Assembly (NCBI GenBank): GCA_946479725.1
Contig: CAMLHB010000078.1
Span: 1 to 9,197 of the forward strand
DNA: 9,197 nt
Source of the DNA: an uncultured Actinomycetes bacterium
Lineage (GTDB): Bacteria; Actinomycetota; Thermoleophilia; Solirubrobacterales; 70-9
Direction of reading: 5' to 3'
Positions 3,226-9,066 of this stretch are shown here, piece by piece. Numbering within the stretch: position 1 is the first letter of the stretch; the number at the start of each line of letters is the position of its first letter. The translations under genes and the position numbers were made by a program. The notes beneath the pieces were generated by a model that did not search any database, had not been told where the DNA came from, and worked only from the letters and a program-made list of their open reading frames with translations.

Positions 3226-4809
3226 GTGGCCGGTCCAGTCAGTCGCGTGCTCTCCAGCAGCCAGCTGGCGACGCTTGCCGAGTACGGGGAGGAGCGCAGC
3301 GCCGAGGTCGGCGAGAAGCTGTTCGAGATCGGCGACGAGACCTACCCCTTCATCGCGATCCGCGAGGGCGAGGCGGCGGTGCTCGACGGGACCGGGAACG
3401 AGATCGTCCGCCACGGCGCCTCCGGGTTCCTCGGCGAGATGAACCTGCTCTCCGGCCAGACGGTCTTCCTCACCGCGATCGTCACCAAGCCGATGCGCTA
3501 CATCGCGGTCGAGCGGGAAGCGCTGCGGAAGCTGCTGCGTGAGGACGCGCCGCTGTCCGACATCCTCCTCTCCGCCTTTGTCCAACGGCGCGAACTGCTG
3601 CAGCAGCGGCAGGGGGTCGGCGTCGAGATCGTCGGCCCGCGCGATTCGGCGGCGACTCGGCAGCTGGTCGACTTCGCGAAACGGCAGCGGCTGCCCTTCA
3701 GCTGGACCGACACCGCCGATGACGCCGAGGCGGCGCGGACGCTCGACGGCCTGGAGGCGAATGAGATCCCGTTGGTGCGGCTACCGGGCGGGGCCGAGCT
3801 GCGGGCGCCGAGCGATGGCAAGCTCTCGCGGGCGCTCGGCATCGGCCTCGAGCTGCAGCCGCGCGAGGAGGTCGACCTGCTGGTGCTCGGCGGCGGGCCG
3901 GCCGGCCTCGGCGCGGCGGTCTACGGGGCCTCGGAGGGTCTCGACACGCTCGTGGTCGAGAGCACCGTGCTGGGCGGGCAGGCCGGGACCTCGCGGCGGA
4001 TCGAGAACTACCTCGGCTTCCCGGCAGGGATCACCGGCTCGGAGCTGACCAGCCGAGCCGTCACCCAGGCGCGCAAGTTCAACGCCCGCACGGCGACGCC
4101 CTATCGCGCGCAGGCGCTGGAGCCGGGCGACGGACACCACCTGGTCCGACTTGAGGAGGGGAACGAGATCTCCGCCCGGGCGGTGGTGATCGCGACCGGC
4201 GCCGAATACCGGAAACTGCCGGTCGCCGACCTCGAGGAGTACGAGGGGCTCAGCATCTTTTACGCAGCCGGTCCGCCCGAGGCCCAGATCTGCGGCGGCC
4301 AGCGGGTCGGCGTCGTCGGCGGCGGCAACTCCGCCGCCCAGGCCGCCGTCTGGCTCGCCCGCGGGGGCGCCCTGGTGACGCTGCTGCACCGCCGCGCCGA
4401 TCTCGCCGAGACGATGTCGGCCTACCTGCTCGACGAGCTCGACCGCTTCGGCGTCAGCGTCCGCGACCGCAGCGAAATCGCCGAACTGCACGGCAGCGAA
4501 GGCAGGCTCGAGGCGGTGAGCCTCACCGACGGTACCCGCCTCCCCTACTCGTTCCTCTTCCTCTTCCTCGGCGCTTCGCCCTGCACCGAGTGGCTCGGCG
4601 AGGTCGTCGATCGCGACGAGAAGGGCTTCATCCGCACCGGTTCGGAAATCGGCGCCGAGGGGCTACTCGAAACCAGCGTCCCCCGCGTCTACGCCGCCGG
4701 CGACGTCCGCGCCGGCTCGATCAAGCGCTGCGCGATCGCCGTCGGCGAGGGCGCCGCGGTCGTCCGCTTCGTCCACGAGCAGCTGACGCCGAGCCCGGTC
4801 AAAGGCTGA
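3226..4809 (+). CDS. Three-part flavoprotein: cyclic-nucleotide-binding-like, thioredoxin-like and thioredoxin-reductase-like domains
   Basis: The 527-residue protein has a CRP-like beta-roll at about 5-115, a thioredoxin/glutaredoxin-like domain at about 130-208, and a two-dinucleotide-fold reductase core from about 215. The FAD motif GGGPAGLGA (222-230), the NADPH motif VVGGGNSA (363-370) and the C-terminal FAD motif AAGDVRAGSIKR (490-501) are intact, so it should bind FAD and NADPH. Three signature residues are missing. The reductase CxxC is replaced by AAGP near 347-350. The thioredoxin-like domain has SAAT (141-144) where CxxC would sit. The phosphate-binding cassette (GFLGEMNLLSGQTVFLTA, 67-84) lacks the arginine that holds the cyclic phosphate. 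Related CxxC-less fusions are, from memory, known in bacteria, with unclear electron acceptors. GTG 3226 fits a leaderless start. Its 3' end overlaps the cpdA-like gene by 11 bp. Confidence 0.85.
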   Translation: MAGPVSRVLSSSQLATLAEYGEERSAEVGEKLFEIGDETYPFIAIREGEAAVLDGTGNEIVRHGASGFLGEMNLLSGQTVFLTAIVTKPMRYIAVEREALRKLLREDAPLSDILLSAFVQRRELLQQRQGVGVEIVGPRDSAATRQLVDFAKRQRLPFSWTDTADDAEAARTLDGLEANEIPLVRLPGGAELRAPSDGKLSRALGIGLELQPREEVDLLVLGGGPAGLGAAVYGASEGLDTLVVESTVLGGQAGTSRRIENYLGFPAGITGSELTSRAVTQARKFNARTATPYRAQALEPGDGHHLVRLEEGNEISARAVVIATGAEYRKLPVADLEEYEGLSIFYAAGPPEAQICGGQRVGVVGGGNSAAQAAVWLARGGALVTLLHRRADLAETMSAYLLDELDRFGVSVRDRSEIAELHGSEGRLEAVSLTDGTRLPYSFLFLFLGASPCTEWLGEVVDRDEKGFIRTGSEIGAEGLLETSVPRVYAAGDVRAGSIKRCAIAVGEGAAVVRFVHEQLTPSPVKG

Positions 4810-5584
4810 ACGGCACCGACTCGGCCTGAGAGTAGAGCTCGCCCTCGCGCAGGGCGTGGATCGCGAACCCCGGGCTGTCCACCACCTGGTACTCGTCGCC
4901 CTGTTCGAAGTCCGGACGCACCTGCCAGTAGGTGCTGGGTGCGGCGAAGACCGGGCGCCCGGCCAGAGTTGAGGCGGCGACCCGGTGCAGGTGGCCGCCG
5001 ACGATTCCCAGGAGCTGCGGATGATCGGCGATCACGTCCCCCAGCGCTCGGCGCTGCGAGGCCGAGAGGTTGATCGCGTCCCACTCGGCGATCCCGGTCG
5101 AGAGCGGCGGATGGTGCAGCGCCAGCAGGGTCGGCGCCTCAGGCTCAGCGGCGAGGGCCTGGTCCAGCCAGCGCAGCTGCTCGGAGGGAAAGTCGCCGGG
5201 ATCCTGCCCGGGGACGATCGAGTCGAAGGCGATGAGGCGCAGCTCACCGACTCGCGCCGAATAGTTGACCGGCTCGTCACCGCCACCGGGCAGCCCGAAC
5301 GCCTCGCGCAACTGGCGGCGGTCGTCGTGATTGCCGGGAATCACGTGCAGCGGGACCTCGAGCCGCGCTAGCATCTCCCGCGCCACTTGATACCCCCCGG
5401 CGGCACCATCGTCAGTCAGGTCACCCGACACCAGCACCGCATCCGGCCGGTTCGGCAGCGAGCGCACCGCCTCGAGCACCGCTTCAAGTCGGGGAATCGG
5501 GTCGAGCCCGTTCTCGTTACCCCCGATGTGGAGGTCGCTGAGTTGGACCAGAAGGACCGGGTCGGTCATCGCCCGCGACATCAT
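4799..5584 (-). CDS. cpdA: CpdA-type class III 3',5'-cyclic nucleotide phosphodiesterase
   Basis: A metallophosphoesterase expected to hydrolyse cAMP, or another cyclic nucleotide, in the cytosol using two metal ions. Counting from the inner ATG at 5569, the calcineurin-type motifs appear in order: SDLH (11-14), SGDL (48-51), PGNHDD (78-83), LALHHPP (149-155) and GGHLHR (191-196). The later APSTYWQVRP segment resembles the ATPSTCVQFKP stretch of E. coli CpdA. At 256-261 residues it has family length. The start is uncertain: ATG 5584 and ATG 5569 are both in frame and neither has a good ribosome site, while the family normally begins only about 10 residues before the DxH motif, favouring 5569. 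The 5' end lies inside the shortened antitoxin gene, so translation is probably coupled. The 3' end overlaps a gene with a cyclic-nucleotide-binding-like domain. The true substrate is unproven. Confidence 0.82.
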   Translation of the reverse strand: MMSRAMTDPVLLVQLSDLHIGGNENGLDPIPRLEAVLEAVRSLPNRPDAVLVSGDLTDDGAAGGYQVAREMLARLEVPLHVIPGNHDDRRQLREAFGLPGGGDEPVNYSARVGELRLIAFDSIVPGQDPGDFPSEQLRWLDQALAAEPEAPTLLALHHPPLSTGIAEWDAINLSASQRRALGDVIADHPQLLGIVGGHLHRVAASTLAGRPVFAAPSTYWQVRPDFEQGDEYQVVDSPGFAIHALREGELYSQAESVPFSL

Positions 5585-5735
5585 GTTCTAGAGGAGGAAT
5601 CGCCACAGCCTTCCCCTGCCGGATCAGCTCCTCGACGTCCCATCCTTCCTCCGCCTTCCGAACGATCTTCTCGATCAACTCGTCGGTGATCGGCTCACCC
5701 TTGATGGTTTCTCCATAGGTCCGCTTCGGCTCCAT
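5517..5735 (-). CDS. Shortened CopG/RHH-type antitoxin-like protein
   Basis: The first 45 residues, with RTYGETIKGEPITDELIE followed by an acidic helix ending EEGWDVEELIRQGK, match the N-terminal part of a common actinobacterial ribbon-helix-helix antitoxin type (pattern GxPITDELxExLxxxAExGYDVxxL). In that family a DNA-binding RHH segment normally follows a short RPPLG-like linker. Here the reading frame instead runs through IPPLE into Pro/Gly/Arg-rich sequence that overlaps the start of the cpdA-like gene, and stops. The RHH domain therefore appears lost. ATG 5735 is preferred because AGGGA lies 6 nt upstream; ATG 5741, which overlaps the toxin stop as ATGA, has that AGGGA directly abutting. 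It may still neutralise the toxin through its N-terminal part, but operator binding is doubtful. The family match is from memory. Confidence 0.6.
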   Translation of the reverse strand: MEPKRTYGETIKGEPITDELIEKIVRKAEEGWDVEELIRQGKAVAIPPLEHDVAGDDRPGPSGPTQRPPHRG

Positions 5736-5737
5736 AG

Positions 5738-5998
5738 TCATTCCCTGGGTAGCAGGCTTGCATATTTTCTTCTCATCTTCATCGCATGAACCGCGATGAC
5801 AGATCCATCCGGTTGAGGGATCGCAACCACCTCTAGCATCGTTCCGTCTCGTGCCGCTCCCAGGAACAGCCGAGAGCCGTCATCTTCATCGACCTCTCTC
5901 ATCGGGTGTCGCAGCGCGTGGGCGATATCCAACCTTGTGATGCCGTGCTTCAAGGCGCTGACGTGTACCCGCCGCATCTTCACGACGCGGAAGGTCAT
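5738..5998 (-). CDS. BrnT-like toxin of a type II toxin-antitoxin pair
   Basis: An 86-residue basic protein with KHGIT (17-21), ALRHP (28-32), a central RLFLGAARDGTMLEVVAI strand pair and VHAMKMRRKY (70-79). This order (KHG helix, xxHP turn, beta strands, C-terminal RxKY) resembles BrnT-like ribonuclease toxins, and close relatives ending HAMxMRxKYxxLLP accompany small antitoxins in actinobacteria. Toxin-before-antitoxin order is also typical of brnTA. Its start overlaps the stop of the peptidoglycan-hydrolase gene as ATGA, and its stop abuts the antitoxin, so all three should share one mRNA. A second ATG at residue 8 (5977) would give a family-typical N-terminus. The local sequence is less G+C-rich than the genes on either side, hinting at acquisition. 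RNase activity is inferred and catalytic residues cannot be assigned. Confidence 0.62.
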   Translation of the reverse strand: MTFRVVKMRRVHVSALKHGITRLDIAHALRHPMREVDEDDGSRLFLGAARDGTMLEVVAIPQPDGSVIAVHAMKMRRKYASLLPRE

Positions 5999-7332
5999 GC
6001 CACCAGGCGGACTTCGAAGCTCGGCATCGCGATCGCGCCGGCGCCGCCGATCAGGGCGAGGATGCGGGTTACGTAGGCCTGGGTCTCGGGATAGGGCGGG
6101 ATGCAGTGGCAGGCTTCGACCGGGGCGGGGCCGGCGTTGTAGGCGGCGAGGGCGAGTTCGGGGGAGCCGAACTGGCGCAGGAGGTCGGACATCAGATGCG
6201 CCTCGGCGTCGATCGCGGCGACCGGGTCGTAGGGGTTGGTGAGGCCGTAGGCGGCTGCGGTCGAGGGCATGAACTGGGCGATCCCCTGGGCGCCGGCGGG
6301 CGAGCCGACGTCGGGGTCGAAGCCGGACTCGGCCATCAGCTGCCCCGCCATCAGCGCCGACGGCACGTGCCAGCGGGCGGCGGAGCGGAGGATTGGCTCG
6401 CGGTAGCGGGCAGGGACGAAGGAGGGAAGGCTGGTCGAGGAGGCCGCGAAAGCGGTCCCTCCCCCGCCCTCGGTCACCGCTTTACCCTCCGGTGAACACG
6501 GCGCCGGGCCGGCGTCGAAGCCGTAGTGCCAAGCCTCCCACGAGTAGCGCTGGGTGAAGCCGAAGCGGCTGGCGTTACCCGCCAGCCAGCCGTAGGCGGA
6601 CGAGGGGCCGAGGTCGAGCTCGGTCGCGCAGCGATGCAGCGAGTGGCCGGGCGGAGCGACCCAGGTGGGGTCGGGATGGGCGGCGAAGAGCTCGGCCTGT
6701 TCGGCGTCGGAGCGGAAGCCGGAGACGACCGTCAGGGTCACCCGGTCGGCACGGGCGGTGGCGGCCATCCGGTCATACGCGGCAGCCACGTCCGGGCGCA
6801 TCCCCTCGCCGTCGCGGTAGACCAGCGGACCGCCGTAGCCGCCACCGGTCGCCATCGCGGTCGCGCCCGATCCGGTCCCGCCGTAAGGGGTACCGGCTTC
6901 GGCCTCGGCGGATGCCTCGACCTTCTGGCCGTCGCCTTCGCGCAGCCGAGCGACCACCGACGCCTTCGCCCGCACCGGCGCGAACGTTTCGGCGTCGGGG
7001 AAGTCGAGCTGGACCAGCGCCGGGTCCACCCCGTTCGATCGCGCCGCCGCGAGGGCCGCCGCCCGCGCCCGCGCCAGATAGAGGGACTTCTCGAGGTGTT
7101 CGGGATTCGGTCGCCCGTCCTGAAGTCGAGGTGGCGCCAGCAACCGCGCGAGGTCGTCCCGCATCGAGCGCACCGCCGAGATCGCGATCAGGTCGGCGGC
7201 GCGCTGAGCCCGCCCCTTGCCGGTGACGGCGCCGGCGATCGCCACCAGCGCCAGCGCCGCCGCGAGCAGGGCGAGGGAGCCGCCGAGGGCGAGGATCAGC
7301 GCCTGACCCGACTCGCTGCGGATCCGCCTCAT
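5995..7332 (-). CDS. Membrane-anchored TadG-like / VanY-type peptidase / lytic transglycosylase fusion
   Basis: A 445-residue protein with three parts. Residues 6-55 form a TadG-like N-terminus: SESGQALIL, one long hydrophobic helix (about 11-36), then AQRAADLIAISA. Residues about 170-275 are an M15 (VanY/DacB) D,D-peptidase: SGFRSDAEQ (204-212), HSLHRCATELD with Zn ligands His233 and Asp240, and SWEAWHYGF with Glu266 and His269. Residues about 305-430 are an SLT transglycosylase: AESGFDP with catalytic Glu335, GAQGIAQFMPSTA (347-359) and ALAAYNAGP (394-402). Both active sites look intact, so the enzyme should cut stem peptides and glycan strands outside the membrane. The M15 and SLT parts carry extra cysteines (235, 279, 408, 410). 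ATG 7332 overlaps the previous stop as ATGA; more upstream starts would lie inside that gene. A role in opening the wall for pilin-like subunits is inference. Confidence 0.87.
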   Translation of the reverse strand: MRRIRSESGQALILALGGSLALLAAALALVAIAGAVTGKGRAQRAADLIAISAVRSMRDDLARLLAPPRLQDGRPNPEHLEKSLYLARARAAALAAARSNGVDPALVQLDFPDAETFAPVRAKASVVARLREGDGQKVEASAEAEAGTPYGGTGSGATAMATGGGYGGPLVYRDGEGMRPDVAAAYDRMAATARADRVTLTVVSGFRSDAEQAELFAAHPDPTWVAPPGHSLHRCATELDLGPSSAYGWLAGNASRFGFTQRYSWEAWHYGFDAGPAPCSPEGKAVTEGGGGTAFAASSTSLPSFVPARYREPILRSAARWHVPSALMAGQLMAESGFDPDVGSPAGAQGIAQFMPSTAAAYGLTNPYDPVAAIDAEAHLMSDLLRQFGSPELALAAYNAGPAPVEACHCIPPYPETQAYVTRILALIGGAGAIAMPSFEVRLVA

Positions 7333-7997
7333 CGCCCGGGTCCGCAGAGGCGGCGCACGAGCCGCTCCGGAAGGCCGCCGGGAGCGCTGGCAGGCAGGAC
7401 TCCGAAGAGAGCCCGCCGCTCGGCGATCCAGCTGAGGCGACACTTCAACACCCCGACGGGGAGTTCCCGGTCGAGCAGGTCCCGCGCGACCAGCGCCACC
7501 AAGGAGCGGTCTCTCATCAGGTCCGCGCGCAGCAGAACACCCCTCGGTTGCAGCCCGGCAGCGGCCAGCCCTGCTTGCAGCAGATGCGGCGGCAGGTGCA
7601 GCACCGTCAGCCCGTCGCGCGCGACCGTCGCCGCGGCTGCGGCCGCCTCCAGGCCTTCATTCTCACCAGCGACCGCCAGATGGCAGACCTGGCCCCGCGC
7701 GGCGACCCGCTCCTCAGGCAGCTGCGCGGCCAGGCGCTCCTCCAGCTTCTGCGCCGCCGCCGAGGCGAGCAGGGTCGGCCGCGGCGCCCTCCCACCAACG
7801 TCGATCAGGAGCGTCGCCGCGTCGACATCGGCGCGGGCGCAGGCAAGCGCCGCCGCCGCGCCGCGGGAACCCTCGGCCTCGCCGACCGCTGTGACGGCGA
7901 GGACGCGTCCCTTCGCCAGCGGGTTGACAAAGCTCAGCGTCCGCTCCGGCGGTTGGTCGTCGAGGACCGCCGGTCGCGGCGGGCTCAGGAGGCTCAT
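7329..7997 (-). CDS. Unknown 222-residue protein, possible degenerate ParA/TadZ-like fold
   Basis: I do not recognise a family. ATG 7997 overlaps the stop of the broken TadE-like gene (ATGA) and has GAGG about 8 nt upstream. The stop overlaps the next start, again as ATGA. There is no signal peptide or membrane helix. The pattern is reminiscent of MinD/ParA-type proteins: a strand, VTAVGEAEGSRG (35-46) where a P-loop would sit, a helix, ATLLIDVGG (61-69) resembling the Walker-A-prime/LLIDxD strand, and later TVLHLPP and GVLLRADLMRDR strand-turn pieces. No lysine is present in the would-be P-loop, so ATP binding is unlikely. Tad clusters often include a TadZ/CpaE protein of this fold, which would fit the context, but this is speculation. 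It is Ala/Leu/Arg-rich, so weak similarity could be compositional. Confidence 0.7.
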   Translation of the reverse strand: MSLLSPPRPAVLDDQPPERTLSFVNPLAKGRVLAVTAVGEAEGSRGAAAALACARADVDAATLLIDVGGRAPRPTLLASAAAQKLEERLAAQLPEERVAARGQVCHLAVAGENEGLEAAAAAATVARDGLTVLHLPPHLLQAGLAAAGLQPRGVLLRADLMRDRSLVALVARDLLDRELPVGVLKCRLSWIAERRALFGVLPASAPGGLPERLVRRLCGPGR

Positions 7998-8276
7998 CGA
8001 GACCGCCTCGCCGCCGCCGCACTGCTGACCGTGAGACGGTCGGAGAGGGCGTCGATCGGCGAGGGCGGACGCAGGCGCACCGAGACCCGATCCCCCTCGA
8101 CGGACACCGCGACGTCGTCCTTCGCCCACCCCGGCGCTGGCGCTCGCCTCGGCGGCGCCGTCGGCAAGCGTCATCGCGTAGCCGGCCACCAATAGCTGCA
8201 GCGCCACCAGGGCCGCCAGCAACAGCGCCGGCAGCGCCGCGACCAGCTCGACCGTCGCCTGACCGCGCTCAGCCAT
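7994..8276 (-). pseudogene. TadE-like pseudopilin gene with a frameshift
   Basis: The first 48 codons read as a pseudopilin: MAERGQATVELVA, with Gly5 before the cleavage point and Glu10 at +5, then a hydrophobic helix and YAMTLADGAAEASA. GGAGG lies 6 nt before ATG 8276, and the start overlaps the previous gene by 8 bp. The frame then drifts into Arg/Gly-rich sequence. One base over, a convincing TadE-type C-terminus appears: PGWAKDDVAVSVEGDRVSV, starting near 8134 and stopping at 7994-7996, where ATGA joins it to the next gene. The 283-bp span is 3n+1. Compared with the intact neighbour TadE-like protein, about 14 residues are also missing between the helix and the C-terminal strands. The likely cause is a small deletion with frame loss near 8120-8150, unless this is an assembly error or a real +1 frameshift. 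Confidence 0.7.
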
Positions 8277-8622
8277 CGGCCGCCTCCAGATCGCTGCCGG
8301 CCCCCAGCCGCAGGCGCGGCAGCGAAGGGATCAGCCGCGGCACCTCGACCTGGACCTCGACCCCGTCCTCGTCGTGGACCCTTACCCCCGAGCGCAGCGA
8401 CGGCGGGAGCGCCGAGCGGGCCGCCTCGGAAGCGTCCCCGCCGACCAGCGTCGCCCGCGCCCCCGCCCGCGCGGCCACGCTGGCCGACCAGAGCGCCTGG
8501 CCGGCCAGCGCGATCTGCGCCGCCACCAGGAACGCCAGCAGCAGGAAGGGGACTGCCGCGACCAGCTCGACCGACGCGGTCCCCTCCTCCCCGTGCGCTG
8601 CTTTCCCGGCCCCTGGCGACAT
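8269..8622 (-). CDS. TadE-like pseudopilin
   Basis: A 117-residue protein with a short N-terminus, then GEEGTASVELVAAVPFLLLA. Gly14 precedes the likely prepilin-peptidase cleavage and Glu19 is at +5, as in Flp/TadE pseudopilins. A single hydrophobic helix (about 20-40) leads to AARAGARATL and a beta-rich C-terminus (GVEVQVEVPRLIPSLPRL), the standard TadE layout. Such proteins are minor pilin-like subunits of Tad/type IVc pili or related secretion machines in the cytoplasmic membrane. ATG 8622 is preferred; its ribosome site is weak (TTGGG). In-frame codons upstream read out of the intergenic inverted repeats and are unlikely to be used. It is the first gene of the minus-strand chain and overlaps the next by 8 bp (ATGGCTGA). 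Confidence 0.85.
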   Translation of the reverse strand: MSPGAGKAAHGEEGTASVELVAAVPFLLLAFLVAAQIALAGQALWSASVAARAGARATLVGGDASEAARSALPPSLRSGVRVHDEDGVEVQVEVPRLIPSLPRLRLGAGSDLEAADG

Positions 8623-8712: not shown

Positions 8713-9066
8713 ATGCGAGCCGCTCGCAACGCCGCGATCATCATGCTGCTGGCCCTGCCTATCGCCTTCCTGCCACGCGGCGACAACTTCGCCGAAGCGC
8801 TGCTGACCGCGCTGACGATGGGCCTCCTCGCCGGGATCGCCTGGATGCTCTACACCTTCAGCCGCGAAAACCAGCTGACCCTGGCGACGCTGACCGAGGG
8901 CCGCCGGGCGATCCTCTACGGCTCCCTGGGCCTGATCGCCCTGCTGATCGCCGGCAGCGACAAGATGTTCTCGACCGGCGGCGGCACCCTCCTCTGGATC
9001 ATCCTCCTAGCCGCCGCCGTGGCCGGCATCTGGCAGGTCTGGATGAAGGCAAATTCCCTTAGCTGA
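8713..9066 (+). CDS. Small integral membrane protein of unknown function (four predicted helices)
   Basis: A 117-residue protein not recognised as a named family. Hydrophobic segments at about 7-20, 29-49, 66-82 and 92-109 suggest four membrane helices. Short polar loops include PRGDN after helix 1, SRENQLTLATLTEGRR between helices 2 and 3, and SDKMFSTGGG between 3 and 4. The basic N-terminus (MRAARN) favours a cytoplasmic N-end. ATG 8713 lies 6 nt after a TANNNT box. The reading frame on its right edge may be an AtpZ/AtpI-like membrane protein, so this gene could belong to the lead-in of an ATP synthase operon, but that rests on a 25-residue fragment. It is real by codon style and hydrophobic pattern; its function is open. 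Confidence 0.75.
   Translation: MRAARNAAIIMLLALPIAFLPRGDNFAEALLTALTMGLLAGIAWMLYTFSRENQLTLATLTEGRRAILYGSLGLIALLIAGSDKMFSTGGGTLLWIILLAAAVAGIWQVWMKANSLS

Follow-up and report, generated by a model that had tools for sequence, protein, structure and literature searches.

How a pilus-type machine may deal with the thick wall of its own cell is the question raised by a locus of a soil actinobacterium, in which one predicted membrane protein combines a TadG-like head with two enzymes of the wall-cutting kind. The locus lies in a window of 9,197 nucleotides (the whole stretch of DNA that was analysed). About one third of the sampled Thermoleophilia genomes encode a TadG-like protein with two such enzymes, so that the encounter of a Tad machine with a thick wall becomes directly testable. 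TadE, TadF and TadG (CpaJ, CpaK and CpaL) are predicted in one tip complex, TadG being a backbone with a variable C-terminal module, according to the accessible parts of PMC12075869, PMC12607857 and PMC13170226, and the accessible part of PMC12307814 presents the Tad pilus without any reported peptidoglycan hydrolase or lytic transglycosylase. LytF of Streptococcus sanguinis, a peptidoglycan hydrolase, is reported to promote type IV pilus extrusion in a monoderm (accessible part of PMC13192262); it is a separate secreted enzyme for the competence pilus, whereas the protein described here is a pilin-fused, predicted dual enzyme. No description of a fused TadG-VanY-SLT architecture was found in the accessible portions of the open-licence literature, and those of PMC8325347, which mentions Conexibacter woesei and pili, do not touch on the gene.

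Domain organization and predicted structure

The TGVS gene (for TadG-VanY-SLT protein) occupies positions 5995..7332 of the minus strand, from an ATG at 7332 to a stop at 5995, and encodes 445 amino acids; the plus-strand frame over 5995-7332 is something else and contains an internal stop. A preliminary description had placed a three-part protein here, and its coordinates and domains were confirmed, with the gene on the minus strand. A chance open frame on a GC-rich minus strand was excluded by full-length homologues, the best 120 of 7481 database matches all carrying both VanY and SLT. Among the matches listed, the closest named relatives belonged to Solirubrobacterales, an order of class Thermoleophilia. 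Database names for such proteins give the two enzyme domains and leave out the Tad part.

Pfam, conservation and structure matches delimited a VanY-type (M15B) peptidase domain at residues 166-274 (6511..6837, minus strand) and an SLT lytic transglycosylase domain at residues 305-430 (6043..6420, minus strand). Both Pfam families scored above their curated cut-offs in the window protein (VanY at 177-270, E 1.2e-12; SLT at 314-406, E 2.5e-18) and were found at E <= 0.01 in 81/81 and 80/81 family members, respectively. Residues 1-150 (6883..7332, minus strand) were assigned to a TadG/Rv3654c-like pilin-like domain on family profiles and an AlphaFold2 model. The TadG-type N-terminal helix of the preliminary description held for the family, where PF13400 (Tad) was matched in 53 of 81 members (best E 2.6e-8) and TIGR03816 (Rv3654c family TadE-like) in 61 of 81 (best E 1.2e-8), each at E <= 0.01. 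The window protein alone bore it out less well: Pfam gave no PF13400 match, and TIGR03816 matched residues 7-58 at E 7.3e-4, below its cut-off. Relatives devoid of the TadG part were not seen: the family model matched from position 6 or earlier in 82 of 84 distinct loci, and the two others are truncated by a contig start (L017) or split over two frames with the N-terminal part matched separately (L098).

The AlphaFold2 model, obtained from an 81-row alignment, had a mean pLDDT of 87.6 and a pTM of 0.64. It predicted a helix of 59 residues (7-65), a second one at 82-99 and, from 107 to 147, a region with strands, followed by two enzyme folds, and this predicted order of N-terminal elements resembles that of a type IV pilin more than an anchor helix alone. 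A structure search with the whole model returned no separate match for the pilin-like part, a result that is uninformative because the enzyme domains fill the match list. Three basic residues precede one strongly hydrophobic stretch (12-30), with no second comparable stretch in the sequence. The hydrophobic helix carries G9-Q-A at its start and, unlike in the neighbouring TadE pair, has no Glu at +5.

TGVS shares with TadG/CpaL/KilN, the large minor pilins of Tad pili, an N-terminal Tad (PF13400) domain, a predicted pilin-like order of elements, TadE-like neighbours and a modular C-terminus (accessible parts of PMC12075869 and PMC12607857). It differs from them by its C-terminal VanY and SLT domains in place of vWA or another module, by an unlinked TadABC and, in most genomes, by the lack of a recognisable Flp. 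TIGR03816 and NF041390, which represent the TadE-like Rv3654c/Rv3655c families known from Actinobacteria, were the best-named matches of the TGVS N-terminus and of its neighbours; unlike TGVS, the TIGR03816 model, with 109 positions, has no room for an enzyme domain.

Conservation of the catalytic residues

The M15 zinc residues and Glu266, noted earlier as intact in the window, were invariant in the alignment of 84 distinct loci (84/84); their codons lie on the minus strand at 6634-6636 (H233), 6613-6615 (D240), 6535-6537 (E266) and 6526-6528 (H269). Glu335, at the SLT catalytic position (codon 6328-6330, minus strand), was likewise present as first noted, and was kept in 81 of 83 distinct loci, row L097 having no residue there. 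A lack of conservation of catalytic residues across homologues was thus not seen, and an earlier alignment of 25 sequences (the window, six database proteins and 18 loci) had given the same picture. The lowest pairwise identity among the 84 loci was 37%, so that this conservation reflects more than recent ancestry. Two diverged members, L094 and L096, display Gly at the SLT catalytic position and retain the VanY residues.

The M15B VanY signature reads S-x-H-x-x-G-x-A-x-D. In TGVS it becomes S-x-H-R-x-x-T-E-L-D, with A, G or S at position 236 of the family and Glu, not Ala, at position 238; Glu238 (window 6619-6621) is invariant and stands beside the zinc site. VanYB, a closest solved relative, has SEHQLGLAVD at this motif, with Ala where TGVS has Glu238. 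As far as the alignment tells, the invariant Glu238 is an unexplained mark of the TGVS family. Structure comparison matched the enzyme folds with VanYB/BaLdcB (M15B) and with SLT-type transglycosylases. Compared with the VanYB D,D-carboxypeptidase and the BaLdcB L,D-carboxypeptidase, TGVS is set apart by Glu238 in HRxxTELD and by the position of its VanY domain, which has a pilin-like domain on one side and the SLT domain on the other. Fold and catalytic Glu are shared with the lytic transglycosylases of the SLT type (Slt70, MltF, Slt of P. aeruginosa); TGVS has N-terminal pilin-like and VanY domains where these enzymes have other domains.

Exposed enzymes of this kind could also damage the walls of other cells that are touched, comparable to the Kil Tad pili of Myxococcus with their other tip modules. 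Such antagonism would be in line with the killing that Tad pilus tip modules can serve (accessible part of PMC12075869) and with the phage tail-lysin families that match the SLT part. It seems hardly credible here, as the enzyme parts are strongly conserved within one class, whereas weapons would be expected to be diverse, and no immunity-like neighbour was noticed by eye in the gene lists.

Two further candidates were rejected. A prophage or phage lysin could be proposed from the tail-lysin matches of the SLT part; the Tad domain at the N-terminus, a neighbourhood that recurs and the distribution speak against this origin. As for a defence system, four window proteins gave no PADLOC match.

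TadE genes and protein M upstream of TGVS

Three minus-strand genes precede TGVS in the window. TadE1, a TadE/Rv3655c-like minor pilin of 117 aa (8269..8622, a longer start being possible to 8670), has the prepilin-type start G|TASVE and matched NF041390 at E 1.1e-4, below cut-off. TadE2, a TadE-like minor pilin (7998..8276), has the prepilin-type start G|QATVE. The third, M (7329..7997, about 222 aa), displays a MinD/ParA-like predicted fold without P-loop and overlaps the TGVS start by ATGA. The gene order TadE-TadE-(M)-TGVS recurred across loci.

A recurrent linkage to TadE-like genes, which the preliminary description had offered as a check, was found: among loci with at least 1.4 kb of upstream sequence, such genes lay just upstream of TGVS on the same strand in 72 of 78 (two genes in 70/78, clean profile), four further loci with too little flank being left out. 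Controls gave none, whether downstream (0/77), upstream on the other strand (0/78) or downstream on the other strand (0/77). When the scan was limited to the 60 loci that gave no profile seed, 54 had TadE and 52 had two genes. The six loci without upstream TadE were L061 and L067 (3.2 kb scanned), L055, L057 and L034 (1.5 kb) and L010 (1.8 kb). Thirty-three upstream TadE-like proteins with G-xxxx-E prepilin-type starts were aligned, of which 23 matched NF041390 and 19 Pfam TadE at E <= 0.01; PF07811 by itself gave TadE above cut-off in 2/9 genomes.

A genome-wide profile search of 18 chosen TGVS genomes (150 of the first candidates scored in 10 of them) yielded 36 strong TadE matches (E <= 1.5e-9), two per genome and all within about 3 kb of the TGVS gene, and five weak matches away from the TGVS locus. 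The Tad-domain search in 18 TGVS genomes (in two of them, among the candidates scored) gave 19 matches in 16 genomes. Ten were above cut-off, all of them TGVS; the nine below it were five TGVS, three elsewhere in G026 and one elsewhere in G254. Judged by these profiles, TGVS is the only clear TadG in the 18 TGVS genomes searched, among the matches listed.

The window TadE2 is 47 nt shorter than the L001 gene, so that it leaves its own frame and enters that of M, forming one 315-aa ORF with it, and L001 and L011 have two genes; the disruption could stem from a fault of the assembly or from a genuine loss. M itself shared an open frame with the TGVS N-terminus in 17 of the 35 loci where it was found. 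As to a P-loop in M, GK[ST] occurred in 0/32 and a looser K[GS]G pattern in two (L003, L052).

These features bear on the placement of TGVS. The preliminary description had it held at the membrane by a pilin-like helix; because this helix is predicted to be part of a complete pilin-like domain, there is a second option besides membrane retention, namely a place at the tip of a short filament. In the second case a processed TGVS would cap a short TadE-based filament, and the motor would drive the enzymes drill-like into the wall. GspK, the tip pseudopilin of the T2SS, is likewise without Glu5. The pilin-like AlphaFold2 model, the adjoining TadE genes with G-xxxx-E starts and the literature, in which TadE/F/G are predicted to form the tip and TadG to be its backbone, bearing a C-terminal module (accessible parts of PMC12075869 and PMC12607857), all point the same way. 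We nevertheless hold a tip position to be unlikely, since the fusion of M in about half of the loci would give TGVS a leader of a length unusual in prepilins that are cleaved, and since TGVS has no Glu5. Between a membrane anchor and a protein moved outward on a TadE pseudopilus, the model and the neighbours favour the pilin role and the M fusion favours the anchor.

Distribution and a second Tad locus

Genomes were searched one by one for TGVS in a class sample (299) and a phylum sample (396). A long match (E <= 1.2e-80; some cut by contig ends) was obtained in 104 of the 299 class-sample genomes, about one third. In the phylum sample, 19 genomes matched nearly the whole model and in two more (G034, G032) the match spanned about three quarters of its length; the class sample already contained all 21, and no long match was found outside Thermoleophilia among these 396 genomes. 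Matches to the SLT part only were seen in the newly drawn G361, G382, G452, G504 and G558, and in G063.

A locus separate from TGVS encodes TadA, TadB, TadC and a CpaB/RcpC-like SAF protein, together with a response regulator and a protein resembling kinases (TadB, TadC and RcpC/SAF beside TadA were Pfam-checked in L021, and elsewhere recognised by eye). The TadABC-CpaB genes were absent from the window and did not lie beside TGVS in the relatives looked at. TadA was matched (E <= 1e-20) in 184/299 class-sample genomes, that is in 88 of the 104 with TGVS versus 96 of the 195 without, leaving 16 with TGVS only and 99 with neither (genome completeness unstated); the association has a Fisher p of about 1e-9, which ignores kinship. 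A long TGVS match was present in 54 of the 60 genomes that scored highest for TadA, and a partial one in 3.

Should the TadG part be a signal anchor only, TGVS would serve general wall turnover and its TadE neighbours would be incidental. The unlinked TadABC locus, the 16 TGVS genomes without a TadA match and the two loci (L061, L067) without nearby TadE speak for such an uncoupled enzyme. Its chances are slim in our opinion, given TadE in 72/78 loci with strong matches nowhere else in 18 genomes (among candidates scored), a whole predicted pilin-like domain instead of a helix, and the association of TGVS with the best-scoring TadA genes.

Parts of the Tad pilus system found with TGVS were TadA, TadB, TadC, CpaB/RcpC and a prepilin peptidase. 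The latter was present in 14/14 genomes, as a single gene in 13 and as two in G130. A second, PilB-like ATPase was also found in 6/9 genomes (T2SSE matches > 430 bits). Since PilB-like ATPases co-occur and the peptidase lies on the PilB contig in several genomes (G001, G003, G005), TadE and prepilin peptidase are not assignable to TadABC by presence alone.

Of 17 fetched loci with sequence beyond TadC, 14 had mraZ within about 4 kb of the TadABC locus, mostly with mraW and ftsI adjoining. MraZ was Pfam-checked in L021, L124 and L131, and MraW and FtsI in L124; the others, including L132, were identified by motif or by eye. The exceptions were L122 and L123, which have a classical Flp-TadE-TadG cluster there instead, and L126. 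The link of a pilus motor locus to the division and wall cluster is unexplained. By eye, L021-L025, L124, L125 and L127-L133 show a TadABC-CpaB operon near mraZ-mraW-ftsI, often with rho at the other side.

The Flp major pilin

PF04964 (Flp) was matched at E <= 0.001 in 72 of 299 class-sample genomes, 23 of them above the curated cut-off. Among TadA genomes, Flp was found in 4/88 with TGVS versus 65/96 without; no recognisable Flp (PF04964) was thus present in 84 of 88 genomes with both TGVS and TadA, compared with 31 of 96 with TadA only. The four Flp-positive TGVS genomes (G073, G085, G095, G186) have two TadA matches each, and in G095 and G186 Flp lies within an extra classical cluster. With PF04964, two Flp genes from classical loci in the same class scored 8e-15; many other matches fell below its cut-off, which limits the reach of the model. 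DUF4244, the Rv3656c-type pilin family, was above cut-off in 0/18 genomes, with one weak match in G192.

In L126, a 98-aa ORF without Pfam match follows TadC, and its hydrophobic stretch begins G-SATADY. This ORF leaves room for a diverged pilin. As most TGVS genomes have no recognisable Flp, naming the machine a pilus is unproven. Among 22 class genomes chosen for TadA without TGVS, 21 had a Tad domain above cut-off. Eight TadG proteins from non-TGVS genomes were scanned; none carried VanY or SLT, and one carried vWA.

A proposed Tad machine with its own wall-cutter

We consider it rather probable that TGVS is the TadG-type large minor pilin of a reduced, mostly Flp-poor Tad machine, and that it carries this machine's own dual wall-cutter. 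The computed basis consists of the families, the catalytic residues, the gene order, a TadE/TadG set that has no clear counterpart elsewhere in the genomes sampled, and a separate TadABC-CpaB locus. That relatives keep the TGVS design beside pilin genes suggests that a machine of the pilus type may come with a wall-cutter of its own. TGVS would be held in the membrane, the N-terminus on the inner side and both enzyme domains on the outer one, and would assemble with two TadE proteins on the TadABC platform. VanY, with a predicted activity on peptide stems, and SLT, with one on glycan strands, would make an opening in the peptidoglycan of the same cell at the machine's site of action, thereby standing in for the separate hydrolases of other envelope machines.

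Counting against TGVS as the TadG of a Tad machine are the unlinked TadABC, the absence of a TadA match in 16/104 genomes and of TadE at L061 and L067, and the PilB-like ATPases; further points are the SLT Glu lost in 2/83 loci, the departure of the M15 motif at position 238, the disrupted TadE2 of the window and the missing Glu at +5. The pilus-like assembly with a wall-cutting enzyme of its own, as put forward in the preliminary description, stands as to TadE linkage and conserved catalytic residues, and is weakened by TadABC-CpaB at a second locus and by a mostly unrecognised Flp.

A bolder view, for which the lack of Flp and the vicinity of mraZ/ftsI leave room, is that of a motor that serves wall remodelling rather than a pilus. 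As a tentative possibility, with the balance against it, TadABC near mraZ, mraW and ftsI would drive a TadE pseudopilus with a pseudo-MinD/TadZ-like partner and position the TadG two-enzyme wall cutter, its job in a large Thermoleophilia group not being pilus-making. Such a machine would be a pilus apparatus that has become a device for the controlled cutting of peptidoglycan and that might act where the cell divides. If so, a type IV pilus motor would work without the usual major pilin.

Other flanking genes

A hydrophobic protein of 117 aa (8713..9066, plus strand), without Pfam match above cut-off, had a relative no more than 4.5 kb upstream of TGVS in 44 of the 48 loci whose upstream sequence reached 3 kb; ten loci gave seeds. 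Downstream of TGVS (5517-5998, minus strand), a DUF4258-like 86-aa ORF, below cut-off, shares the four nucleotides ATGA with the end of TGVS, and a 74-aa ORF comes next. Matches to both were obtained in L001 only, among 20 loci; our guess is a small toxin-antitoxin-like pair. Short genes of VapBC/Phd-type appearance were noticed by eye between M and TGVS in L006, L010 and L034. Finally, positions 3226-4809 (plus strand) encode a cNMP-binding domain fused to a pyridine-nucleotide-disulphide-oxidoreductase-like flavoprotein, and relatives of it lie downstream of TGVS in several loci.
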